NCBI GenBank assembly: GCA_029054245.1
Contig: JAIDFQ010000045.1
Coordinates: 1-64,000 of the forward strand
Reading direction: 5' to 3'
From: Lachnospiraceae bacterium
GTDB taxonomy: Bacteria; Bacillota; Clostridia; Lachnospirales; Lachnospiraceae
Length of the DNA stretch: 64,000 nucleotides
Shown here: positions 38,493 to 52,548 of the stretch, piece by piece
Layout: every line of letters starts with the position of its first letter
Numbering within the stretch: the stretch's first letter is position 1
Made by a program: the position numbers and the translations under genes
The notes under the pieces: model-generated
Seen by the model: only the letters and a program-made list of their open reading frames with translations
Database searches by the model: none
Told to the model about the DNA's origin: nothing

Positions 38493-38684
38493 TCAGAGGG
38501 CTTCGATCTTAGCCATTAAATCATTTATATCCATGCCATGAACCATAGCAGCCTCCTCAAGACTTTCCGCCTGCGCGGAAGGACAGCCAAGGCAATGCAT
38601 GCCTGCTTCCATGAGGATGGGCGCAACGTTCGGGTTGGTATTCAAAATCTCGCCGATTGTCATGTCTTTGGTAATCTGAGCCAT
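38493..38684 (-). CDS. DUF1858 redox-disulfide protein, 63 aa
   Basis: The sequence matches the hybrid-cluster-protein-associated redox disulfide family: [11 protein letters not shown] start, [19 protein letters not shown] with the C31-x2-C34 pair, and HGMD near the end. These small proteins are thought to carry a redox disulfide in anaerobes. It is transcribed away from the pyruvate formate-lyase genes from a divergent promoter region, which suggests a shared anaerobic or oxidative signal. The ATG follows GGAGG. Confidence 0.88.
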
Positions 38685-38907: not shown

Positions 38908-38937
38908 TTGACGATAAATGATATTCTAACATATAAT
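38908..38937 (+). promoter_or_regulatory. Promoter of the split pyruvate formate-lyase operon
   Basis: TTGACG (38908-38913) and TATAAT (38932-38937) are spaced by 18 bases. It is 69 bases before pflB, whose ATG follows AGGAGG. Confidence 0.75.
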
Positions 38938-39006: not shown

Positions 39007-41046
39007 ATGAGACCAGAATGGAAAGATTTTGTAGGCGGCAAGTGGGAGAATGAAGTCAATGTGCGCGACTTCATCCAGAGGAACTATCATCCTTATGATG
39101 GTGACGAATCCTTCTTAGCTGAAGCTACACAGAACACAAAAGACTTATGGCAGATGGTACTTGACTTGCAGAAGAAAGAGCGTGAGGCAGGCGGCGTTCT
39201 TGATATGGATACCAAAGTTGTATCAACCATCACATCACACGGCCCCGGTTACTTAGACAAGTCCAAAGAAAAAATCGTTGGTTTCCAGACAGATAAGCCT
39301 TTTAAGCGTTCTCTCCAGCCTTACGGCGGTATCAGAATGGCTGAAAAAGCTTGCGCTGACAATGGCTATGAAGTTGACCCTGAAATCAGTGAGTTCTTCT
39401 CAACACACAGAAAGACACATAATGCAGGATGCTTTGATGCTTATAATGCAGAGATGAGAGCATGTCGTTCCGCGCATATCATCACTGGTCTTCCAGATGC
39501 TTATGGACGTGGACGTATCATCGGTGACTACAGACGTGTTGCTCTGTACGGTATCGATAGACTGATCGAAGACAAGCAGGCACAGAAGGATTCTACAGGA
39601 CGTGTTATGACAGATGACGTTATCCGTCTTCGCGAAGAGCTTTCTGAGCAGATGGTTGCCCTTAAGATGATGAAGGAAATGGCTGCATCTTATGGCTGCG
39701 ATATCTCCAAACCTGCTACTAACGTACAGGAAGCAATCCAGGCTACTTACTTTGGTTATTTATGTTCAGTTAAGGAGCAGAACGGTGCTGCTATGTCCCT
39801 TGGACGTACATCCACATTCCTTGACTGCTATGCAGAAAGAGATCTTGCGAATGGAACATTCACAGAGCAGGAGATTCAGGAATTTGTTGACCACTTCATC
39901 ATGAAGTTAAGATGTGTAAAATTTGCACGTACTCCTGAATACAACCAGATCTTTGCTGGTGATCCTGTATGGGTAACAGAATCTCTTGGCGGTGTTGGCG
40001 TTGACGGACGCCCCATGGTAACAAAGATGAGCTTCCGTTATCTGCATACACTTACAAACTTAGGTCCCAGTCCGGAACCTAACTTGACGGTTCTCTGGTC
40101 TACAAGGCTTCCTGAAAACTGGAAGAAATACTGTGCAAAGATGTCTATCCAGACCTCTTCTATCCAGTATGAGAATGATGACCTCATGAGAGTGACACAC
40201 GGTGACGATTACGGTATCGCATGCTGCGTATCTTCTATGGTAATTGGTAAGGAAATGCAGTTCTTCGGCGCAAGAGCAAACCTTGCAAAATGTCTGCTTT
40301 ACGCTTTGAACGGCGGTGTTGATGAAGTTACCAAGAAACAGGTTGGCCCTAAGTATCGTCCTGTTGAAGGCGATGTGCTTGATTATGATGATGTATACAG
40401 CAAGTTCATCGATATGATGGAATGGCAGGCAGATGTATATGTAAATACTCTGAACATCATCCATTATATGCATGACAAATACTGCTATGAAAGAGCTGAA
40501 ATGGCACTTCATGACAGAGATGTTAAGCGTTACTTCGCAACAGGTGTTGCAGGTCTTTCCATCGTGGCTGACTCCTTATCCGCTATCAAGCATGCTAAGG
40601 TAGAGGTTATCAGAGATGAAGACGGTATCATCGTTGACTTCAAGACAACTGGTGAGTTCCCTAAATATGGTAATGATGATGATCGTGTAGACAGCATTGC
40701 GCAGGATGTTGTTCATAAATTTATGACAGCAATCAGAAGACATCACACCTACAGAAATGGTGTTCCTACAACATCCATTCTTACCATTACATCCAATGTA
40801 ACTTATGGTAAAGCAACCGGAAACACACCTGATGGACGTAAGAAAGGTCAGCCTTTCGCTCCTGGTGCAAATCCGATGCATGGACGCGATACCCACGGTG
40901 CAGTAGCATCCTTATCCTCTGTATCCAAGCTTCCTTTCAATGATGCACAGGATGGTATTTCCAATACCTTCACGATTATTCCGGGCGCGCTTGGCAAGGA
41001 AGATCAGGTATTTGCTGGGGATATCGAGCTCGACTTAAATAAGTAA
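39007..41046 (+). CDS. pflB: Pyruvate formate-lyase core lacking its glycyl-radical domain
   Basis: This is a true pyruvate formate-lyase by its active-site pair Cys406-Cys407 in YGIACCVSS and by whole-length similarity. It is only 679 residues; the family usually has about 750-760. It ends with [20 protein letters not shown], the point where a normal enzyme continues into the loop and glycyl-radical domain RVSGYAV. That domain is encoded separately two genes downstream. The stop is not a frameshift: both downstream genes have their own strong ribosome binding sites. The enzyme converts pyruvate and CoA to acetyl-CoA and formate, and would need the small partner to be active. Confidence 0.94.
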
Positions 41047-41082
41047 AGTAAACAATAATCCGCTTTCAGGAGGTACAATGCA

Positions 41083-41286
41083 ATGGATGACAAAAAGATG
41101 ATCGATGATCTTGTAAAAATGCTGGATTCCGGTATGGCTATGGGTGTAGGTCATGTTAATGTAGACTATGACGAGACAAAAGAGAAATCAAAAGAAGTTC
41201 AGACCATGGGATGCACAGATTGTTCCAGAACGCCTCTGGCGTGCAGCGTACCTACCCTGGAGGATGGTTTGGATGATTTTCATTAA
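41083..41286 (+). CDS. Cysteine-containing GrcA-like small protein, 67 aa
   Basis: The N-terminal part (IDDLVKMLDS ... GVGHVNVDYDETK) aligns with the start of the glycyl-radical protein encoded next ([10 protein letters not shown] ... [13 protein letters not shown]). After this, instead of the radical loop, it has GCTDCSRTPLAC with cysteines 44, 47 and 54, and an acidic tail. I read it as a paralogue of the radical subunit that lost the glycine and gained a cysteine motif, possibly binding metal or acting as a thiol. The ATG follows AGGAGGT and is 36 bases after the core gene. No function is known to me. Confidence 0.7.
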   Translation: MDDKKMIDDLVKMLDSGMAMGVGHVNVDYDETKEKSKEVQTMGCTDCSRTPLACSVPTLEDGLDDFH

Positions 41287-41309
41287 GAATTATAAGGAGG
41301 TAAATTACC

Positions 41310-41552
41310 ATGGCAACAAATACAGCACAGGTAGATAATTTAGTATCATTATTGGATGGCTATGCAACAAAGGGTGGACACCATCTGAATGTAAATGTAT
41401 TGAACAGAGACATGTTGTTAGATGCTCAGAAGCATCCTGAGAATTATCCTCAGCTTACGATCCGCGTTTCTGGATATGCTGTTAACTTCATCAAGTTAAC
41501 ACCTGAACAGCAGGCTGACGTTATTTCCCGTACATTCCATGAGTCCATCTAA
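41310..41552 (+). CDS. grcA: Separate glycyl-radical subunit of pyruvate formate-lyase (GrcA-like)
   Basis: The 80-residue protein is the missing C-terminal piece of the split enzyme: [20 protein letters not shown], then the radical motif IRVSGYAV with Gly55, then [17 protein letters not shown]. It is the part activated by PflA. In E. coli a related stand-alone protein (YfiD/GrcA) only repairs oxygen-damaged PFL; here, because the core lacks this domain, it should be an obligatory subunit. The ATG follows AAGGAGG. A strong terminator comes next. Confidence 0.9.
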
Positions 41553-41592
41553 GGGATAGGAAGGAAATTTTATTATTCTAATATGAGTGAAG

Positions 41593-41634
41593 AAGGCATA
41601 TCACCAGAATTATGAAGGGTGATATGCCTTTTTG
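41593..41634 (+). terminator. Terminator of the split pyruvate formate-lyase operon
   Basis: A perfect 13-bp stem, AAGGCATATCACC with GGTGATATGCCTT, is followed by a T run. Confidence 0.92.
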
Positions 41635-42101
41635 CTGCTTTCGTCTATGTGCAAGGCTTGTCATTTTGAAGTTTGAACAGTTCCGCCAGCGGACGGAGTT
41701 CTGTTTTGAAGGTAAGAATTTTTATCTATATCTTGCGAAAACGTTTAAGTGGCGCAGGGCATCCAAGGGAGAGGAGCATAAGAGTGAATAGATCTGGGAA
41801 CGGCTGTTCTTGCGCGGCTGCGCAACACGGAGCGCAACTTGAGGGCTCGTCATATATTCCAAAAAAACAATTCTAAAATTGCACAAAATCTCTAAAAATA
41901 ATTTGTAAGACTTAACGAAAATTAACGGAAACTTTACGAAAACTTGACAGTAGATTTTAAGAGTACTATACTAAACATGAACCCTAGAATTAGGAAAAAA
42001 GTAACAGATACATATAAATAGCGTTAGTTTAGCATAAGCAATTGGTAACGTTGCCGGGCAGAGGCATGCTGACGGTGATAAGAGATGTGGGGTTGAAGAA
42101 T
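41635..42101 (+). other. Intergenic region and leader of the pilus locus
   Basis: The first 300 bases show no gene or RNA I can name; there are short GC-rich repeats (TTGCGC/GCGCAA at 41811-41826) and an AT-rich run after 41880. The pilus promoter follows at 41944. The leader after it is about 120 bases, with no riboswitch signature I recognise. Confidence 0.45.
41944..41972 (+). promoter_or_regulatory. Near-consensus promoter of the pilus locus
   Basis: TTGACA (41944-41949) and TATACT (41967-41972) are spaced by exactly 17 bases. It is the best match to the sigma-A consensus in the window and stands 130 bases before the giant adhesin gene. No further promoter of this quality was seen within the 17 kb locus. 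Confidence 0.8.
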
Positions 42102-45100
42102 ATGAAACAAAAAATGGAAAAAGCGATCTCTACAATAAGAGAAAAAACAAGGAGAAAAGGATTCATAAGAAAAGCGGTTGGTCTCGTACTGGCTGCTTTA
42201 ATGATACTGGAAGCGCCTTCGTGGAGCGGTTTTATAGAATTGGCGCTTGCGCATGAAGACAAGGTAGGATCCGGGCGTTGCATTTATGTCGATACATCTC
42301 TAATCGGAGCTGACTCGGATGTGATGGAGAGCGGCATCGGGGCATACTTATATGATCGCGAGGGTAATACATATTCTGATGCGCCTGTTCTTATGGAGAA
42401 GGTGGATGGAAAAAGAAATATCTATCAGCTTGTCCTTGACGATTACTATACATATGTAGAGTTCACAAAAGGCACAGATTTGAATACTGGCACGAAGACA
42501 GAGCAATTGGCAATCGACTGGAGTCTCGGAGCTCCTTGCTATATGTTCAATAGTGAGGCGCTTTCTGACGGGGGGCGTTTTTATGGTCTCTATACCATTT
42601 ACTTTGATTTAAACGGCGCTTCAGGAGCAGGTGCATTTGCAGATAACGGTGTAGGCATTTACGCGTATAATTCTTCCAATGAAGATAGATATACAGCTGT
42701 CCCTGTGGCTATGAAAGCTTCGGACAAAGGTGACGGCGTTTATGAATACAGCTTTGATAGACCTTATGAATGCATTGCTTTCATGGGCGGTTATGGCAGC
42801 TGGAATTATGAAGTGGCTACAACACCAGTTTATATGGAGTGGAATTACAGCGCACCATGCTTCTTCCTTGAACAAGTGGATGGATTTGAATCCACTGGCT
42901 TATGGAGAAATCTCAGGTATGTGGTTTATTTTGATGCATCTGACATTAAAGAGGATGAAGCTTTTATAGAAAATGGTGTTTACTTATATGCCTTTAACGA
43001 TTCGGATGATAAATTAAGTGAAAATCCGGTTAAAATGGTTGCCTCAAGTGCAGGTGATTATATTTATGAATATACGATGGAAAGACCTTATGAAAATCTT
43101 CAGTTCATATTAGGCGATTCTCTGGATGCAGAGGTGGCATCAGAGGTTCTTACAAATGACTGGATGGAATATGCGGAGCCTTGCTATAAGATGACGCTGG
43201 ATAGAAAAGAAATCATAAAGGCGAGTCCGTCCGCAAGTCCGAGCATGACACCGAGTGCAAGCCCGTCCGGTAGTCCTAGCGCATCACCTTTGGCAGATGC
43301 TTCGGCAAGTCCGTCCGGCAGTCCTAGCACGACACCTAGCACAATGCCTTCAGGCAGTCCGTCCGGCAGTCCTAGCACAACGCCTGGCATGAATGCTTCG
43401 ATGAGCCCGAGCGCAACGCCGAGCAGCAAGCCAAGTGTAAGCCCGAGTGCAACGCCGGGAGCAACACCTTCAGCGAACCCGGGAGCAACACCTTCGGCAG
43501 GTCCGACAGAAGCGCCTACACAGGCACCTACAGAGATGCCGACAATTCAGCCGACAGAGGCGCCGACAACAGAGCCTACGGCAGAGCCGGCTCCAGATCC
43601 GACACCAGAACCGGTTGTGACACCAGAACCAGAACCGACGCCAGAAGAGGGTTCTACTGATGAAACGAATCCGGATTCGGGAAATACGGATGAACAGCCG
43701 GGTGAGGAAGAAGGCAGCTCAAATGATGAATCACAGGACGATTCTGGTGATGAACCGCAGGAAGCGGAGCAGGCACGGATTATGAGCATAAAGGTACCAG
43801 CTGTCTTTGATGATTTAACAGTAGTCCAGGAATCTTATGCAATGACTTGGGTTGGAACAGAGCCTGGAACAGACAATGATGAAGCTGACACGATAGAGAA
43901 TGATAGCACAGACGATTCGGGCAATGTAGATGATTCGGACAATACGGAAGTACCAGGGACACCGGATGATTCGTCGGAGGTGGAAAATCCGACAACGCCG
44001 GATGAGAACCCGGTGGTTCCCGAGTCTCCGGCAGAGCCGACAAATACACCGGACGAAAATCCTACATCTGCTCCAGATGTAGATGCAGAACCTACCGCTG
44101 TTCCTGATATGGGAGATGGAACAGGAGAGATGCCTGATCCTTCAGGTGACCCCGGCATGGCTAGTGCATCTCCCTCAGCTACACCGGAAGGTGGAGAAGA
44201 TGAACCGGTGGTTGAGACCACGATGTCGCTGTTATCCAGTACAGGCGCTACAATGCTGTTCCGCAGCGCTGGAGCGTTAAGAATTGGAAATGGAAAGGTT
44301 AAGACAATTTATTTTGATACATCAAGTATAAGTTGGACTAGTGGTGATAATTGGGGAACCAATAGCAATAATCAAATGTATATTTTCCTTTTTGGCAGTA
44401 GCAACTGGAGCGTGACGAAAAAGATGCAGCTTTCTCAAAGGGAAAGCATTGTGACCTCAACGCCAAAAGGAAAATTATGGGAATACACGCTTACTGAAGA
44501 AGAGGCGGAGAAGGCTACAACAGTAATATTTTTGCCACAGGAAGGATTTGTAACGAACGCAAATTGGCAGCAAACGATTGATGTAGGACTTTATACAGGC
44601 ACATTGGCATCGACAGAAGGCTCCTATCCTTGTTACTCACTTGATGGAGGAAATCAGGATGCAACTAAAAAAAGAATAGTTAAATATTGGGGAGATTTAG
44701 GCCCATTATCCCAAGCTGGAAAGTCTGTTTACTTCTACGATATGACGTTGCAGTTGAAAGCAGAAGACATTGTGGCAAGGTTTGGGGGAGAAGGACTTTC
44801 GGAAACAGAGGTGTTAAGAGGTTCCGATGGAGGATATGAAATACCTGCGGATGTGGTTTTGCTTGATCAGCCTTATTCTACGGTGGCATTCTATGATGCA
44901 AATGGCAATCAGATAGGAGAAACCTATAATTTATTTAATAAGAGCTCAGATGGAATTAAGGGAGTTACTTATGATGAAGAGCTCATGAACACCTTTTACT
45001 ATGGCGCTACCGAAAAAGTGGACGGAACAAAAATCAGCGCTTGGGGTGCAAGACCGTCTGAATCAGTGGTAAATCTGGCAGGCAGGAAGCTTTATTTTGA

Positions 45101-48100
45101 TAAGTTGTATTTTAAAGTTACCAAAACAACAGAAGCAGCAGTTAGCATAGATGACGAAAATGGTGCGTACAGCGTAAATGCAATAAACGTCATGGATGGA
45201 ATGGAAGGAGAAGCAGCAAAGGCAGGCGCCCAGTTCCAGATTGGCACGGAAGCACCAATTGCTTTGACGGCAGATGAAAATGATAAGCGGACATACAGCT
45301 ATGTCTTTGATGCTGCTTCCACAGCGACCAGCCAGACCGTTCTTACTTATTTAGATCAGGATGGGACGAAATATCATTTCTTCTGGGATAAATTTGATTT
45401 AGAAGAGAATGGCGCAACCATCACGGATGGAAACAATCTGGTTACCCAGGAGTATGAAGTAGCTAAGGTCTTGGGGCAATATAGGAAAGGCAATACGATT
45501 TATTTTGACGCAACTTTTTCAAAATTATCCTATTATGGATCAGATGGCGCTAAAAATAGCGGAAAAGGTATTCCGGCAAGTGATACAGAACCGGTTTACT
45601 ATCTGGCGACAGGACCTGGCATGCAGACCTTATCCGATGTCATGGTCAAGGCGGAAAAAGAGTCATGGAAAGACGTCTGGAAGGTGGATCTGCCAGAAGG
45701 GTATACACAGATTAAGTTTTTAGCTTATGCCAACGAACAGAATCCCAATGTGCAAAATGGCAATGGCGAAGCAACAAAGCTTATGAATATTCCTACCAAT
45801 ATTGATGATCCCTGTTTTTATGCAGATAACAGTGATTCTGTAATATATGATGGCGGGATGCGTGATGGATATTGGGCAGAGGTTTACAAGACCAGAGATG
45901 CGGAGGCTTATAAAGATAAGGAAATCGTAGATATCAAAACGGGGACGCTCACAAGAGCATCAGATGTTTTTTATGTGGATTCTACCTTTTATGATTATTA
46001 TTCAGACTATGAATTAAACGGCAATAACCGTGATAATTATGGCGGCAGCAATGTTTCCAACCATCGGAACTGGGTGACATTTAGGCAGTTTGATCAGGCA
46101 CTAAGTGATTTTTACGAAGAGAACAGTGCAAGTGTACCGATTTATACCGGACATTTCCAGTGGCCTGGATGGGGTTATTTCCCGTTTAACGCAATGAACG
46201 ATACCCTAAAGTTATATGGATTTGATAATCAGAACTATTTCTATTCTACAAATAACTCAGCAATAAATGCGAGTGGTACGCAAGGGCGTTACAACGCTGC
46301 GGCACAGGGATTGGTTTCTGATACTTTGTCAAATGGAAGTGTGGTCATTAAGGGCGGTTCTGGGCTGCTTCCCCATTTTGATTCGGATTTCCTTGCAGGA
46401 AATAACAGCAAAAATGCGGTGCTTGGCAAAGTGTACGAGAATGTGGCATTCCCTTTCAAGGCAGTAGACCGAGATAATAACGGTATTAAATACTGGACCT
46501 TTGACAGTAAGGATACGACTCTGGCAATGCGGCAGGATTCTTCAACGGGTCAGTATTATCTGCAGGACACGGGACATCAGGGATGGAGCAAGAATGTAAA
46601 TAGTACGGGTACAACGGGCGGAGTTGATGGTGTTTCGACAGAGTATGGCTTCTTCCCGTTTAATGAAACCAGTGCAGCCGCAAGTGGTAAAAATTACAAC
46701 TATGGCTATGGAACAAAGCTGGAGTTTAAGTTCAGACTGACCAAGGATGGTACTGTTTTAGACAGTAACGGCAATCCTGTGCCGATTACCTTTGAGTTTG
46801 CCGGAGATGATGATGTTTGGGTATTCATTGATGGAAAGCTTGCGCTGGATGTAGGTGGAGCTCATGCGCGTGTACAAGGAAAATTAAATTTCAACAATAA
46901 GACAGCTTGGGTGAGTGACACAAAGACCAGTAGCGGTTCTACTTCTCATGGTGAAATTACAACATCTTTTGAAATGATAGGCAGCAATACAGATGAGCAC
47001 ACTTTGACCATGTTCTACATGGAAAGAGGTATGTGGGAGTCTAATATGGCAGTCAGCTTTAACTTCCCGGATGAAAATCAGCTGGCAGTTGAGAAGGAAG
47101 TTGATGTAAGCGGTGTGGATCCGGCTTTCCAGGGATTGTTCGAGGGAGTCAGCCTTTTCTCATTCGTTATCCGCAATCAGGCAACGCATTATGGACCTCA
47201 TGCGGTGGAGACCACTGCTGAAAGCGTAGAAAAAGTATTTAATGATTCCTTTGCAGGTTCAATCAGCAAGGATTCTACAGCCAATATATTTGAAGCCGTG
47301 GGCAGTTATGCCGGAAGGGACGGCGTGGTTCATTGGAGAGCAAAATATGACGAACCCGGCGGAGGATATAGAGATAAGCGATGCGGAATCATTTATCCTG
47401 CCGGCGGCGGAGCAATGGATCTTACAGATGCTAACCGGTATCTGCAGTTTAAGGTTTATTATGACAATAACAGTAATCCTGCAATTAACCACATGTACAT
47501 TGAACTGGTGGATAATACGGGACACAAGATATCGCATACCTTGAATGGTATGACATACGGAACTGTCAATTTAAAGAGGCGCGAGTGGACGACGATAACT
47601 GTGGATCTGCAGAAGTTTGCAGCAGGCGCTACTTTTAACTGGGCAGGCGTGACGGCTGTCAGATTTGGCTACAATTACGAGAGAGATATTTACTTAGATG
47701 ACTTTGTTTTCAAGTCAACTTCGGGAGCAAGTGCGCTGACCGGATTTATAACAAAACAGTATGATATTCCAGATTATGGTTCTGCTACATCAGGCAATCT
47801 GGAATACCCGAAGGGTGCACTTTACACCTTGACAACAGCAGATGGAAATGTATCTTATGGTGTGATTGGATCTGATGGACAGTTTGCACTGGGAGATGGG
47901 GAAAACGTTCTTTTCAGAGACCAGTTTAGACGAGGAAGCTACATCGAACTAAGAGAAATGGTGGATTCAGATGTCTTTGCAACTTCATGGACCATGTATG
48001 AAAATGGTCAGGCAGTGACCAGCATGGGAAGCGGCTCTAAGGTACAAAATGGCAGCATCAGTAATCTCACCGGTGTTACATCAGCAGACAATTTCGTGAA

Positions 48101-49559
48101 TGATGGAAGAACAGAGGTTTATTCCGGTTCAAATGATGCAGAAGGTGTATATCAGGGCAATAGCGGGTATACAAGTACGCACAGACCGGGAGGCAATCCA
48201 GTTTTCGTATTCCGTTCTTATGATGATCCCGATACGGATTCAGGTATGACGAAACTTAGAGTATTGTACAGAAACACAGTGAAGACTGGTTCACTTACCA
48301 TTCGTAAAGAGCGGTCAGAGAGATCAGATGCATTGACAGGAACTTACAGATTTGATATCACATTTACCAATGTGGCAGGTATGGGTCTGGAAAGCGAGCC
48401 AATTGTCAAAACAATTACGCTAAAAGAGAATGAAGAAAGGACGATTACAGGAATCCCAATCAATACGGAGTTTTCCATTACAGAGACACCGTCCGATAAG
48501 TCCTTTATTGAGGATGTGAAAGCAGTAGCTGGTGATGCAATCACCTTTAATCCAGAGACGAAAGTGGTAACAGGACAGATCACTCCCGCTGGAAGTGAGG
48601 TGAAGCTGACATTCGTCAATATGCTAAGACCTGTTATTGATATCCATTTGGAGAAGATTTGGAAAAATGCAGATGGCTCAGACGTAACAGAGGACGAATT
48701 GCCCGAATATCTTACGATTCGTTTACAGAGAAGAGAAAAGGGCTCAAAGGGCGAATGGAATGATGTAATTATCAAAGGTCAGGAATCAGCGGATATCAAG
48801 ATTGGCAATAATCAGGCGAGAACTTGGGAATATGAGTTTAAAGATCTTGACAAATTCGTAGACAATAGGGCTGATGATAAGGTTTTATGGGAATACCGCG
48901 TTGTGGAAGTGAAAGAAGACGGAACCGTAGTGGTAAATGGAGGCGTCTTAAGCAATAAATTCCAGGCAGTCTACTCAGATCCTGTATTTGGGGATGAAAA
49001 TCTAGGCGCTGATGCGGAAGAGTCGTTTGAAACCACGATTACCAATATCCATCTGGTATCACTAAAGGTTAAAAAAGTAGATGGCAGCGGTAAACCGCTG
49101 GGAGGAGTTTCCTTCCAGCTGCAGAAGAAAACGGATGCGGGATGGACTCCTATAGAGGTAACAGTAAATGGTGAGACCACAAATACGATTATAACACCAT
49201 CTGAAGATGAAAATCCGGTAGGAGGTGCAGGTATCATTATATTTGCAAATCTTCCCAGTGGTGAATATCAATTAGTTGAAACAGCGACGGTGCCGGGGCA
49301 TACGCTTCTTGCAAGTCCCATACCGGTGACAATCAATACGAATGGAGAACTCAAGTACATAATTAATGGAAAAGAGCAGACACCAGTGGACAACACGATT
49401 GAGATTACGATTAAGAATGGTCAGAACCTTGTAATGCCTTCAACTGGAGGCAGCGGACCGATTCCGTTTACTGTAGGCGGCTTAAGTATTTGTATGATTG
49501 CCAGCCTTATGTATATAGACAGCATGCGTAAGCGCAGGAAGGAGGGTAAAGCCTCCTGA
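42102..49559 (+). CDS. Giant LPxTG surface adhesin, probable pilus tip protein
   Basis: About 2,485 residues. A signal segment (about 20-50) is followed by three similar units of about 90 residues (about 60-147, 165-254, 273-363), each with an IYFD-type strand and a PC(Y/F) end; at least three further looser copies follow the linkers. A Ser/Pro/Thr linker (about 374-520) and a second acidic linker lie between. A fibro-slime domain (around 1560, GDDDVWVFIDGKLALDVGGA), Cna-B domains (around 2060 and 2180) and a SpaA-type domain (around 2320) lead to the sorting signal MPSTG (2445-2449), helix and basic tail. I start at the ATG after GGGG. Likely role: host or glycan binding at the pilus tip. 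Confidence 0.88.
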   Translation: MKQKMEKAISTIREKTRRKGFIRKAVGLVLAALMILEAPSWSGFIELALAHEDKVGSGRCIYVDTSLIGADSDVMESGIGAYLYDREGNTYSDAPVLMEKVDGKRNIYQLVLDDYYTYVEFTKGTDLNTGTKTEQLAIDWSLGAPCYMFNSEALSDGGRFYGLYTIYFDLNGASGAGAFADNGVGIYAYNSSNEDRYTAVPVAMKASDKGDGVYEYSFDRPYECIAFMGGYGSWNYEVATTPVYMEWNYSAPCFFLEQVDGFESTGLWRNLRYVVYFDASDIKEDEAFIENGVYLYAFNDSDDKLSENPVKMVASSAGDYIYEYTMERPYENLQFILGDSLDAEVASEVLTNDWMEYAEPCYKMTLDRKEIIKASPSASPSMTPSASPSGSPSASPLADASASPSGSPSTTPSTMPSGSPSGSPSTTPGMNASMSPSATPSSKPSVSPSATPGATPSANPGATPSAGPTEAPTQAPTEMPTIQPTEAPTTEPTAEPAPDPTPEPVVTPEPEPTPEEGSTDETNPDSGNTDEQPGEEEGSSNDESQDDSGDEPQEAEQARIMSIKVPAVFDDLTVVQESYAMTWVGTEPGTDNDEADTIENDSTDDSGNVDDSDNTEVPGTPDDSSEVENPTTPDENPVVPESPAEPTNTPDENPTSAPDVDAEPTAVPDMGDGTGEMPDPSGDPGMASASPSATPEGGEDEPVVETTMSLLSSTGATMLFRSAGALRIGNGKVKTIYFDTSSISWTSGDNWGTNSNNQMYIFLFGSSNWSVTKKMQLSQRESIVTSTPKGKLWEYTLTEEEAEKATTVIFLPQEGFVTNANWQQTIDVGLYTGTLASTEGSYPCYSLDGGNQDATKKRIVKYWGDLGPLSQAGKSVYFYDMTLQLKAEDIVARFGGEGLSETEVLRGSDGGYEIPADVVLLDQPYSTVAFYDANGNQIGETYNLFNKSSDGIKGVTYDEELMNTFYYGATEKVDGTKISAWGARPSESVVNLAGRKLYFDKLYFKVTKTTEAAVSIDDENGAYSVNAINVMDGMEGEAAKAGAQFQIGTEAPIALTADENDKRTYSYVFDAASTATSQTVLTYLDQDGTKYHFFWDKFDLEENGATITDGNNLVTQEYEVAKVLGQYRKGNTIYFDATFSKLSYYGSDGAKNSGKGIPASDTEPVYYLATGPGMQTLSDVMVKAEKESWKDVWKVDLPEGYTQIKFLAYANEQNPNVQNGNGEATKLMNIPTNIDDPCFYADNSDSVIYDGGMRDGYWAEVYKTRDAEAYKDKEIVDIKTGTLTRASDVFYVDSTFYDYYSDYELNGNNRDNYGGSNVSNHRNWVTFRQFDQALSDFYEENSASVPIYTGHFQWPGWGYFPFNAMNDTLKLYGFDNQNYFYSTNNSAINASGTQGRYNAAAQGLVSDTLSNGSVVIKGGSGLLPHFDSDFLAGNNSKNAVLGKVYENVAFPFKAVDRDNNGIKYWTFDSKDTTLAMRQDSSTGQYYLQDTGHQGWSKNVNSTGTTGGVDGVSTEYGFFPFNETSAAASGKNYNYGYGTKLEFKFRLTKDGTVLDSNGNPVPITFEFAGDDDVWVFIDGKLALDVGGAHARVQGKLNFNNKTAWVSDTKTSSGSTSHGEITTSFEMIGSNTDEHTLTMFYMERGMWESNMAVSFNFPDENQLAVEKEVDVSGVDPAFQGLFEGVSLFSFVIRNQATHYGPHAVETTAESVEKVFNDSFAGSISKDSTANIFEAVGSYAGRDGVVHWRAKYDEPGGGYRDKRCGIIYPAGGGAMDLTDANRYLQFKVYYDNNSNPAINHMYIELVDNTGHKISHTLNGMTYGTVNLKRREWTTITVDLQKFAAGATFNWAGVTAVRFGYNYERDIYLDDFVFKSTSGASALTGFITKQYDIPDYGSATSGNLEYPKGALYTLTTADGNVSYGVIGSDGQFALGDGENVLFRDQFRRGSYIELREMVDSDVFATSWTMYENGQAVTSMGSGSKVQNGSISNLTGVTSADNFVNDGRTEVYSGSNDAEGVYQGNSGYTSTHRPGGNPVFVFRSYDDPDTDSGMTKLRVLYRNTVKTGSLTIRKERSERSDALTGTYRFDITFTNVAGMGLESEPIVKTITLKENEERTITGIPINTEFSITETPSDKSFIEDVKAVAGDAITFNPETKVVTGQITPAGSEVKLTFVNMLRPVIDIHLEKIWKNADGSDVTEDELPEYLTIRLQRREKGSKGEWNDVIIKGQESADIKIGNNQARTWEYEFKDLDKFVDNRADDKVLWEYRVVEVKEDGTVVVNGGVLSNKFQAVYSDPVFGDENLGADAEESFETTITNIHLVSLKVKKVDGSGKPLGGVSFQLQKKTDAGWTPIEVTVNGETTNTIITPSEDENPVGGAGIIIFANLPSGEYQLVETATVPGHTLLASPIPVTINTNGELKYIINGKEQTPVDNTIEITIKNGQNLVMPSTGGSGPIPFTVGGLSICMIASLMYIDSMRKRRKEGKAS
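43221..43650 (+). repeat. Ser/Pro/Thr-coding low-complexity repeat
   Basis: Tandem, imperfect copies of short units such as AGTCCGTCCGGCAGTCCTAG and ACACCTAGCACA encode a Ser-Pro-Thr-rich stalk of about 140 residues within the adhesin. Such repeats change length easily by slippage or recombination, so stalk length may vary between strains. Confidence 0.8.
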
Positions 49560-49615
49560 GGGAGAGAGAGAAAGTCAAAACAGTAAAAAATCAAAAAAGA
49601 AAGGAATGAGACAAA

Positions 49616-51604
49616 ATGAAGAAATTGAAGAAATTTTTGGCTGGAGTCGTAACTCTGGCAATGGCAATGTCCATGATGACAATCACAGCATTTGCCGCAC
49701 CAACCATTGAAGACTCAAAAGATGGCAGCGCTAGCCTGACAATTCACAAGTATGAGTACAATGGAACAGAAGTAAACAAGGGAACGGGTAGTGAAAGCGA
49801 TACCGTTCCAGCTGATGCAAAGCCATTGGCAGGAGCAGGATTTACAATTTATAAGGTTGTAGATAAAGATGGTATGGATGCTTACTACAGTGCGAATCCC
49901 ACAGCTCTTCCTGGTATCGATACTTATGTTGAAAATGGGAAGATTAAAAATGCTTATGCAGGTAATAAGGTAGGGCAGGAAATAATAACCGGTGCTGATG
50001 GACTTGCAAAATTTGAAAACTTGGAATTAGGTTTTTATGTAGTAATCGAAACAACGAAACCGGCAGCGGTAACGGAAGCAGTAGCTCCGTTCTTGGTATC
50101 CGTTCCTATGACTACGGTAGATGGCGAAGGCTGGCTGTACGACGTACACGTATTCCCTAAAAATGGAACTACGTACGGCGGAGTTACCTTGGAAAAGACA
50201 GGAAAAGATGGTGCAAAATTAGAGGGAGTCACGTTTGTGCTTCAGAAGTATGTAGGAGATCCAAATGATGTAGAAGAGCCTGGTTATTGGATGACGATCA
50301 CAAAGGCATCAGGAGCAGGTGGCGATGATACTGGAGCAGAATTGAATCTTGTTACAAATAAAGAAGGTATTATCAAAGTAGAAGGTCTGTCACAGGGAAC
50401 ATACCGATTTATCGAGACATCCGTAGGAAATAATGACAACTACATTATGGATGGTAAGACAACATATGAGTTTACAGTGACAGATAAAGGAACAGTTATA
50501 TATAACGGCGCTGAAGCATCAGATTCCGTAAAAGTTGCAATTAAGAATGAAAAACCTGACGTTGAAAAACAAGTAGCAGATAAGGATGGAAATTTACAGG
50601 ATCCAGGTAAGGGAGCTGACTATAGTGTCGGTGATAAGGTTCCTTATACCGTAACCATTGATGTACCTGCTAATATTGTAGATCTTAAAACTTTCAAGAT
50701 TACAGATACTCCGACGAACTTGAAAGATGATATAAATACAATTAAGGTGAAATGTGATGCTGCTGATGTGGCAAGCGGAGCATATAAAATAACAGAGTCA
50801 GGCAATGGATTTGTAATGGAATTTACAACTGCGCAGATGGCTGATTATGCGGGCAAAAAGATCGTTGTTACATATGAAGCTACCTTATTAGAAGGAGCAG
50901 TATCTACACCGATAGGAAATGGAAACAAGGCTACACTGGAATATTCAAACAATATATTACCAGAGAATGATCCCCAGAATCCAAATACTGACGAGGAGCC
51001 TAAAACAGACAAGATTGAAGATTCAGCAACTGTATTTACCTTTAAGGTTCAGATTTTAAAGAAGGCAGAGTCAGAGAACGGAAAAGCGCTTCAAGGAGTA
51101 GAATTTGATTTATACAGAGAAGCAAAAGATGGTGAAACAGGCGTGAGTAACGCAGCAGATTTAGGTCTTCCTTCTGGAAAATCATGGGTTAAGGTAAACA
51201 CAGATCCTCTGGTGACAGATGAAAACGGTGAAGTTAGTCAGTCAGGTCTCGCCAATGGAACATATTATCTGGTAGAGTTAAAGACCAATGAGGGATATAA
51301 TTTATTAAAGGCGCCTGTTAAAGTTGAATTGAAGGTTCAGTACACAATAACGACCAAAGACGAGTACACTACAGACGAGAATGGTCAGACAACATTGATA
51401 AAACATGAAGTAGAAAAGGTAGTGTTTGCTGGTGCAACAGATAATGCACAAGGTATTATTGTCAGCACTGTAATCAATAAGCAGGGATTCACGCTTCCTA
51501 GCACCGGTGGTATGGGTACTTTCGTATTCACTTTCGTAGGTATCGCCATGATGGCAGCCGCAGTTATTCTTTTCTTCACATCAAAGAAAAAAGAGGCAAA
51601 GTAA
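49616..51604 (+). CDS. Major pilin, isopeptide-forming SpaA/FimA type
   Basis: The 662-residue protein has a signal peptide (1-28), three or four Ig-like SpaA/FimA domains, and a C-terminal LPSTG (627-631), helix and KKK tail. The pilin motif is HVFPKN with Lys182, the residue that accepts the next subunit's threonine. A domain with VGDKVPYTVTIDVP (about 340) and an E-box (YYLVELKT, near 555) fits intramolecular isopeptide bonds. The ATG follows AAAGGAATGAG. It is expected to form the pilus shaft, polymerised by the class C sortases encoded next. Confidence 0.92.
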   Translation: MKKLKKFLAGVVTLAMAMSMMTITAFAAPTIEDSKDGSASLTIHKYEYNGTEVNKGTGSESDTVPADAKPLAGAGFTIYKVVDKDGMDAYYSANPTALPGIDTYVENGKIKNAYAGNKVGQEIITGADGLAKFENLELGFYVVIETTKPAAVTEAVAPFLVSVPMTTVDGEGWLYDVHVFPKNGTTYGGVTLEKTGKDGAKLEGVTFVLQKYVGDPNDVEEPGYWMTITKASGAGGDDTGAELNLVTNKEGIIKVEGLSQGTYRFIETSVGNNDNYIMDGKTTYEFTVTDKGTVIYNGAEASDSVKVAIKNEKPDVEKQVADKDGNLQDPGKGADYSVGDKVPYTVTIDVPANIVDLKTFKITDTPTNLKDDINTIKVKCDAADVASGAYKITESGNGFVMEFTTAQMADYAGKKIVVTYEATLLEGAVSTPIGNGNKATLEYSNNILPENDPQNPNTDEEPKTDKIEDSATVFTFKVQILKKAESENGKALQGVEFDLYREAKDGETGVSNAADLGLPSGKSWVKVNTDPLVTDENGEVSQSGLANGTYYLVELKTNEGYNLLKAPVKVELKVQYTITTKDEYTTDENGQTTLIKHEVEKVVFAGATDNAQGIIVSTVINKQGFTLPSTGGMGTFVFTFVGIAMMAAAVILFFTSKKKEAK

Positions 51605-51621
51605 GTTAGTAAGGAGCAATT

Positions 51622-52548
51622 GTGGATAAAAAGAGAGCATGGTTTATAGCAATCCTGTTTTTGTCAGGGTTATGCATAACTTTATATCCGTTTGTCAGTA
51701 ACCTGATCGCGCAGTCAAATGCCAGCCGGGCGATTGCCGAGTATGATGAGCACATCGCCCAGATGGATCAGGAAGATATCGATGCTGCAAGGGAGGCTGC
51801 GATGAAGTATAATGAACAGCTCAGCAACGCAGTCACCCTCAGTATCGACCAGGAGGATGAAAGTATAAGCTACCTGGATCTGATTGATGTCGGTGAGAGC
51901 ATTGGCTTCATTGATATCCCTAAGATCGATGTGTATCTGCCAATCTATAATGGCACAAGTGATGAGGTTCTGCAAAAGGGTGTGGGACATCTGGAACAGT
52001 CTTCTTACCCGATTGGCGGGGAGAGCACGCACTCAATCTTGACCGGACACAGAGGTCTGCCCAGCGCGGTACTGTTTACCGATCTTGACAAGCTGGAAGT
52101 GGGGGATTTATTCTACCTGCATGTGCTTGACGAGATACTTGCATACCGTGTGGATCAGGTTAAAATCGTCCTTCCGGAGGAAATTGATGATTTAAAAATT
52201 GTACCGGGAGAAGATCATTGTACATTGGTGACATGTCATCCTTATGCAATCAATACGCACAGAATGCTTGTGCGCGGCGTTCGGACAGAATATGTTCCGG
52301 AAGAAGAGGAAGAACAGCATATTACCTATAGTGAGCTTCAATCAGGTACGCTTACAAAGCGAATCGTGGATGTATGGCCGTGGCTGCTTGTATCACTGGT
52401 GATCATGGCAATAGTGGAAACTGGTATTTTCCTCTTGATTGTAAAGCGAAAGAACCAAAAGAAGGATTCAGAGGAAAAACCCAAAAAGAAAACAAAATTA
52501 AAAAAGCGTCCCCAAAGGAAAAGCAGAAGAAAGGACAATAACGACTGA
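51622..52548 (+). CDS. Class C (pilin-polymerising) sortase
   Basis: The 308-residue enzyme has a membrane segment at each end (about 7-27 and 248-272) and the catalytic residues His143 (TGHRG), Cys205 (TLVTC) and Arg214 (NTHRM), plus the class C segment GHRGLPSAVLFTDLD. No DP(W/F/Y) lid motif is visible before the barrel. The start is a GTG after AAGGAG. It links pilin subunits, joining the threonine of LPSTG to Lys182. It ends with a long basic tail and overlaps the MoxR gene (TGATG). Confidence 0.93.
   Translation: MDKKRAWFIAILFLSGLCITLYPFVSNLIAQSNASRAIAEYDEHIAQMDQEDIDAAREAAMKYNEQLSNAVTLSIDQEDESISYLDLIDVGESIGFIDIPKIDVYLPIYNGTSDEVLQKGVGHLEQSSYPIGGESTHSILTGHRGLPSAVLFTDLDKLEVGDLFYLHVLDEILAYRVDQVKIVLPEEIDDLKIVPGEDHCTLVTCHPYAINTHRMLVRGVRTEYVPEEEEEQHITYSELQSGTLTKRIVDVWPWLLVSLVIMAIVETGIFLLIVKRKNQKKDSEEKPKKKTKLKKRPQRKSRRKDNND

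Follow-up and report, generated by a model that had tools for sequence, protein, structure and literature searches.

The operon studied here appears to encode a pyruvate formate-lyase (PFL) divided over separate polypeptides: a catalytic core that stops before the radical domain, a free 80-residue glycyl-radical subunit (GrcA3) and, encoded between them, a small protein that we call MID, which ends in a Cys-pair tail. In anaerobes, PFL supplies acetyl-CoA and formate metabolism, and oxygen destroys the enzyme at its radical glycine. Judging from sequence, the operon probably specifies a heteromeric PFL, the sole PFL found in this genome, that works with GrcA3 and a Cys module. The original prediction made from this DNA had described a two-part enzyme; the core and GrcA3 proved real, but the description was incomplete, the third gene between them having been overlooked. 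The features are collected in Table 1; positions are those of the window, meaning the whole stretch of 64,000 nucleotides analysed, except for the unlinked second GrcA3.

Table 1. Features of the split PFL locus and associated genes
Feature	Position	Strand	Evidence
pflA, PFL-activating radical-SAM enzyme, 251 aa	32141..32896	-	TIGR02493, 296.7 bits; PF04055
Sigma-70-like promoter TTGACG-18-TATAAT, upstream of core	38908..38937	+	Consensus scan, 11/12 matches
PFL catalytic core, no C-terminal radical domain	39007..41046	+	679 aa; TIGR01255 E=0, PF02901
Codons of Cys406-Cys407 (E. coli C418/C419)	40222..40227	+	Script; alignment to IACCVS of E. coli PFL
MID, 67 aa, GrcA3-like N-half and Cys tail	41083..41286	+	ORF; AGGAGG nine bases before ATG
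MID residues 2-31 (homologue of the GrcA3 helix and strand, residues 3-32)	41086..41175	+	hhalign
Cys tail of MID (residues 41-67; contains Cys47, Cys54 and PTLEDGLDD)	41203..41283	+	Conservation, pN/pS
GrcA3, free glycyl-radical subunit, 80 aa	41310..41552	+	NF038360, 160 bits; PF01228 positions 50-106
RVSGYAV radical motif (Gly55 codon 41472-41474)	41463..41483	+	Translation; invariant in alignment
Terminator-like hairpin and T run, after GrcA3	41590..41635	+	RNA fold -25.3 kcal/mol, z -4.9
Second, unlinked GrcA3 of the same genome	G000:C36:87109-87339 (L002:1441-1686)	-	Beside Crp-family regulator

Against the 744 positions of TIGR01255, the core covered 2-665 and GrcA3 663-744, leaving no gap, and the core alone scored 1089 bits, above the curated cut-off of 994.2. 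When aligned to E. coli PFL, the core matched residues 10-681 and GrcA3 residues 682-758, which places the seam at 681|682. The comparison with full-length PFL that had been suggested as a check was thus favourable: the two proteins together cover the PFL model and abut. The core has the adjacent active-site cysteines Cys406-Cys407, and no glycyl radical motif is present in its chain, which stops at TIGR01255 position 665; the motif is in GrcA3. The ORF, the profile and the E. coli alignment confirmed the predicted core of 679 residues with its Cys pair, and the predicted small gene was likewise found as described (80 residues, RVSGYAV, Gly55 and its own AAGGAGG upstream). The statement that the core ends exactly before the radical domain agreed with the seam in E. 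coli PFL and TIGR01255, but not with the Pfam domain, since the cut falls inside PF01228 (profile positions 1-51 in the core and 50-106 in GrcA3).

We have searched the host genome (98% complete, 80 contigs) for any other PFL. The core was the sole match to PF02901. PF01228 matched four sequences: the N-part of the domain in the core, the GrcA3 of the operon, the second free GrcA3 and a frame of 731 residues on another contig, which we take from its context to be a class III ribonucleotide reductase. No full-length PFL was found with PF02901 and PF01228, and this supported the claim that GrcA3 is an obligatory subunit.

The core, MID and GrcA3 genes share a strand, are separated by 36 and 23 bases, and are each preceded by a ribosome site. 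The promoter call is weak on its own, since the consensus scan found 9 promoter-like sites in the region against 7.2 expected. None of 200 shuffled sequences was as stable as the hairpin after GrcA3, which the consensus terminator scan, with its loop limit of 8, did not pick up. The pflA gene is the only TIGR02493 match above cut-off in the genome and is located about 6 kb from the core on the opposite strand. Upstream of the core and divergent from it there is a small redox-disulfide gene (TIGR03980, DUF1858; 38493-38684, minus strand), and such a gene also occurs near the split PFL in two other loci (L038 and L039). A pilus cluster (42042-52545, plus strand) encodes a 2505-aa Ser-Pro-repeat cell-surface protein, followed by a SpaA-type pilin with an LPXTG anchor and a sortase.

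A search of genomes for cores beside GrcA-like genes, also put forward with the prediction, showed that the arrangement recurs in relatives, and for this reason a sequencing error could be excluded. Among 161 MID loci, 147 were wholly readable and all except one had the order core-MID-GrcA3 (146/147); the exception (L213, from genome G475) reads core-GrcA3-MID. As the 161 loci were selected for holding MID and some genomes are included twice, this should not be read as an unbiased count. In 70 of the 78 named loci readable over at least 1.5 kb, the set was followed on its own strand by a PflA-like frame.

The N-half of MID aligned with GrcA3 over 30 columns in hhalign (probability 95.4, E 1.6e-8). 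In place of the radical loop of GrcA3, MID has a linker and a Cys tail, which bears PTLxxG and two invariant Cys and follows the pattern C-x5/6-C-x-x-P-T-L; residues C47, C54, P57, T58, L59 and G62 were invariant in 20 aligned sequences. The RVSG radical motif is absent, which places MID outside GrcA3. No Pfam or NCBIfam model covered MID above its cut-off: none of the 20 aligned MIDs matched Pfam, ten matched NF038360 weakly (best E 1.3e-4), one matched another model of the NCBIfam search at 0.0039, and the MID of the window matched none in that search. Comparison with PDB sequences gave chance-level matches at most, and 110 pattern matches in viral_contigs yielded no confirmed case of phage carriage. 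Residues 53-58 of MID (ACSVPT) resemble the active-site loop of the core (405-410, ACCVSS), perhaps by mimicry and perhaps by chance.

MID shows purifying selection, which constrains the Cys tail most and the linker least. Over 102 loci with 67-aa MIDs, pN/pS was 0.16 for the whole protein, 0.15 for the N-half, 0.44 for the linker and 0.061 for the tail, with GrcA3 at 0.083 in the same comparison; these values were computed over sequence pairs that are not independent. A search of 60 relatives recovered MID in 34, namely 32 of the 36 genomes of the host's genus (the four in which it was not found being G009, G011, G013 and G016) and 2 of the 24 others.

We have then considered how MID and the split state are distributed. 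In a survey of 295 genomes of the order, in which frames below 200 aa scoring above 150 bits were counted as free GrcA3, at least 53 genomes had a free GrcA3, and more divergent free domains may score lower; the expectation that the arrangement is widespread in the family was borne out. The full MID profile matched in 42 of the 295 genomes, all of them with free GrcA3. Among the matches listed, the 53 genomes with free GrcA3 comprised these 42, nine with a Cys-tailed core, one with a split PFL in which neither MID nor a core Cys tail was seen (G223) and one unreadable because its core lies beyond the contig stretch (G305). Two of the nine core tails were ECGNQACNIPN- or ECGVDSACAIPN-like, and seven had a short CxCC form without PTL. 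The class survey (391 genomes) added full MIDs in G475, G434 and G381 and a split PFL with no visible Cys module in G478. Outside the order, the tail positions of the MID profile (47-69 or 49-69) matched the ends of core frames in four genomes (G433, G621, G407 and G431; E 4e-5 to 4e-4), in which tails such as DLDCSNGACSTPTLFEGLD were read. Split loci L089 and L214 both carry MID. Conversely, the linkers of the 24 fused PFLs read, among them the re-fused ones, have no Cys pair. The spacing between the two Cys ranges from one residue (CxCC) to six across modules, and the residue statistics of the module rest partly on rows selected by sequence pattern. Altogether, the Cys-pair tail, be it on MID or at the end of the core, is very probably a functional part of the split design. 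Named carriers of MID, which represent the best 80 of at least 484 confirmed candidate stretches, include Parablautia muri, P. intestinalis, Acetatifactor muris and Lachnospiraceae 10-1 and 28-4. One MID locus (L147) comes from a contig assigned to Muribaculaceae, which was probably misbinned and belongs to Lachnospiraceae.

Extra, unlinked GrcA3 genes were present in 7 of the 53 order-survey genomes with free GrcA3, among the matches listed, and G147 has a second MID-GrcA3 pair. The extra GrcA3 of G257 belongs to a series of genes that includes thioredoxin and rubrerythrin, that of G269 adjoins rubrerythrin and a Crp-type regulator, and that of the host genome, also one of the seven, adjoins a Crp-type regulator. 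Four others (L092-L095) stand beside spoIIIAA, identified by Pfam in L092 and L093 and as a lookalike by eye in L094 and L095. These neighbourhoods are suggestive only, and would fit an oxygen-linked supply of spare subunits or subunit exchange.

A phylogeny of 62 cores (24 fused and 38 split) placed all split cores in one clade (support 100/99), which also contained two fused PFLs (L098 from G277 and L099 from G161), so that the split label required two changes. Placing these two outside the split clade was rejected by the AU test (p 6.6e-8 with 62 rows; 1.4e-5 with 59 rows). Because the tree nests two fused PFLs inside a single split clade, the history, as we read it, would be one split and one re-fusion. 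These two PFLs lack both MID and a Cys pair, and no free GrcA3 was seen in their genomes among the matches listed. With E. coli PFL as outgroup, the PDB entries 38la and 38lb fell in the split clade. The place of the Cys module, coded with four labels, required 9 changes on the tree, and a single clade of tail-type cores was rejected (p 6e-101); thus, the module changed place several times. The independent-pairs sign test of the split state against the Cys module had only two pairs (p 0.5), and with two independent contrasts their coupling is to be taken as a pattern and not as a significant test.

The structures 38la and 38lb, deposited as formate acetyltransferase, align to full-length PFL only up to GALGK/GKED, and no radical domain was detected in them. 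The 38lb chain has a further 44 residues, which matched none of our queries and did not align with a Cys-tailed core. PDB searches returned no GrcA3- or MID-like chain. An AlphaFold model of the core and MID as one chain, built from an 89-row alignment, had a pLDDT of 77.8, with the MID strands at about 70; an earlier model from a 20-row alignment was useless (pLDDT 42.2). In the better model, the MID strand was not at the place of beta-10 of E. coli PFL, the structural match ending at model residue 668, and 38la and 38lb were absent from its listed structural matches (library to April 2026).

How the parts may work together can be proposed from these comparisons. GrcA3 is highly likely to dock at the place that the C-terminal domain takes in an ordinary PFL, bringing the radical glycine, the helix and the strand. 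The core would contribute the pyruvate/CoA site and the Cys pair, and GrcA3 the glycine made radical by PflA together with the final barrel helix and strand. In the excerpted text of PMC12338860, E. coli GrcA can serve in vivo a PflB unable to hold its own radical, and radical delivery by a separate subunit is thus feasible. Likewise, E. coli PFL truncated to residues 1-695 (tPFL), a cut made 14 residues beyond the natural seam 681|682, is described as still taking up the radical with truncated YfiD (PMC8683613, as excerpted).

For MID, we tentatively favour the possibility of a stand-in that holds the place of GrcA3 with its thiols over the Cys pair of the core. The N-half of MID copies the helix and strand by which GrcA3 would dock, and it may be expected to contact the same site on the core. 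When GrcA3 is off, whether still awaiting activation or cleaved by oxygen, its place would be kept by MID. The Cys-pair tail, which sits on MID here and ends the core itself in other lineages, would bring thiols to the active-site mouth, in tail-type enzymes from the core directly, and these would lie over or cap the exposed Cys pair of the active site until MID gives way to a fresh radical subunit. A fused PFL would need no Cys module, because its radical-subunit site is never empty. Against the stand-in are the CxCC tails without PTL in seven of the nine core-tail genomes, and G223 and G478, which are split and in which no Cys module was seen. Moreover, holding the slot would not be the common function of the module, since tail-type enzymes have neither the MID helix nor its strand, and the predicted fold of core and MID lends slot-holding no support. 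A fuller cycle, in which MID or the Cys tail holds the site, caps the cysteines and yields to the operon GrcA3 or to an oxygen-linked second one, seems to us possible but unlikely.

The stand-in was ranked ahead of two other functions. MID or the Cys tail may instead be an activation adaptor that docks GrcA3 or PflA on the core and replaces the lost covalent tether, an explanation that we hold somewhat less probable. The core tail occupies the former linker position to the radical domain, PflA is usually encoded beside the core-MID-GrcA3 set, and two reports, as excerpted, point the same way: residues 696-733 of cut E. coli PFL and the N-terminus of YfiD are important in installing the radical but not in turnover (PMC8683613), and a small subunit of benzylsuccinate synthase (BSS) promotes thiyl radical formation (PMC12590467). 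An adaptor leaves the retention of two thiols unexplained, however, and the pflA of the window is 6 kb off and on the other strand. The Cys pair could also act as a switch or quencher, reducing a stray glycyl or thiyl radical or sensing oxygen through a disulfide that releases GrcA3. The two Cys are invariant in the 20 aligned MIDs and the pair is kept in both MID and core tails; the divergent TIGR03980 gene upstream of the core and the thioredoxin or rubrerythrin genes adjoining some second GrcA3 genes are also compatible with redox control. Yet the Cys spacing is variable, and no redox partner was fused or constantly adjacent in the loci read; we regard such a switch as rather unlikely.

Two further explanations were considered. 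MID could be a functionless, decaying duplicate of GrcA3, as the homologous N-half and the lost radical motif would allow; its pN/pS of 0.16 (0.061 in the tail), its retention across several families and the same tail on cores make this very improbable. It is hardly more credible, indeed still less so, that GrcA3 is an ordinary repair part while a full-length PFL elsewhere does the work. E. coli GrcA/YfiD does act in that way (PMC8683613, as excerpted), and a PFL gene could be missing from an 80-contig assembly, but the profile searches found none at 98% completeness, and the core is itself without the radical domain from the start.

A Clostridia lineage, including many gut Lachnospiraceae, thus appears to have shifted the vulnerable part of PFL onto an 80-residue subunit, and damage could therefore be mended by replacing that piece. 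MID accounts for the small unannotated gene that separates core from GrcA3 in almost all such operons read. Should the Cys module serve exchange, the missing component for in vitro rebuilding of the enzyme has been named and turnover of the radical subunit becomes directly testable; were the exchange cycle true, it would constitute a dedicated exchange system for a radical enzyme subunit and involve a previously undescribed protein family. The split enzyme had been suspected of being little described. Searches of the open-licence PubMed Central literature agreed, finding neither MID nor a natural split PFL, but the enzyme is already named in part (the NCBIfam model GrcA3) and solved in part (the two PDB cores, 38la and 38lb). 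As far as our searches reach, both the third component MID and its association with the split form are new.

Several known systems bear comparison with this enzyme. The cluster-binding Cys-rich domain of a BSS-type Fe-S accessory subunit has four Cys ligands. MID resembles the beta and gamma subunits of BSS in being a small extra subunit of a glycyl-radical enzyme, which in BSS steers the radical step (PMC12590467, as excerpted); unlike these 4Fe-4S binders, MID has two invariant Cys (n=20) and no Pfam match in 20 sequences, and is not such an Fe-S subunit by this test. The PFL cores of 38la and 38lb belong to the same split clade and were compared here by sequence. Relative to PflB (TIGR01255; E. 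coli 1h16 and 2pfl), the core is alike over residues 10-681 with the Cys pair kept and GrcA3 stands for 682-758, whereas here the radical domain is a separate polypeptide and a Cys module is added. With GrcA/YfiD (TIGR04365, 6owr), GrcA3 shares the free RVSGYAV domain, its 61 C-terminal residues aligning with YfiD 67-127. GrcA3 is not a YfiD, because it is without the N-terminal arm and keeps the PFL helix before the strand; its TIGR04365 score of 99.9 bits is below the cut-off of 170, and no intact PFL was found in the genome for it to repair. It does match the NCBIfam model NF038360, "autonomous glycyl radical cofactor GrcA3" (160 bits; cut-off 158), a name that suggests a repair part, whereas here no radical subunit other than GrcA3 was found for PFL.
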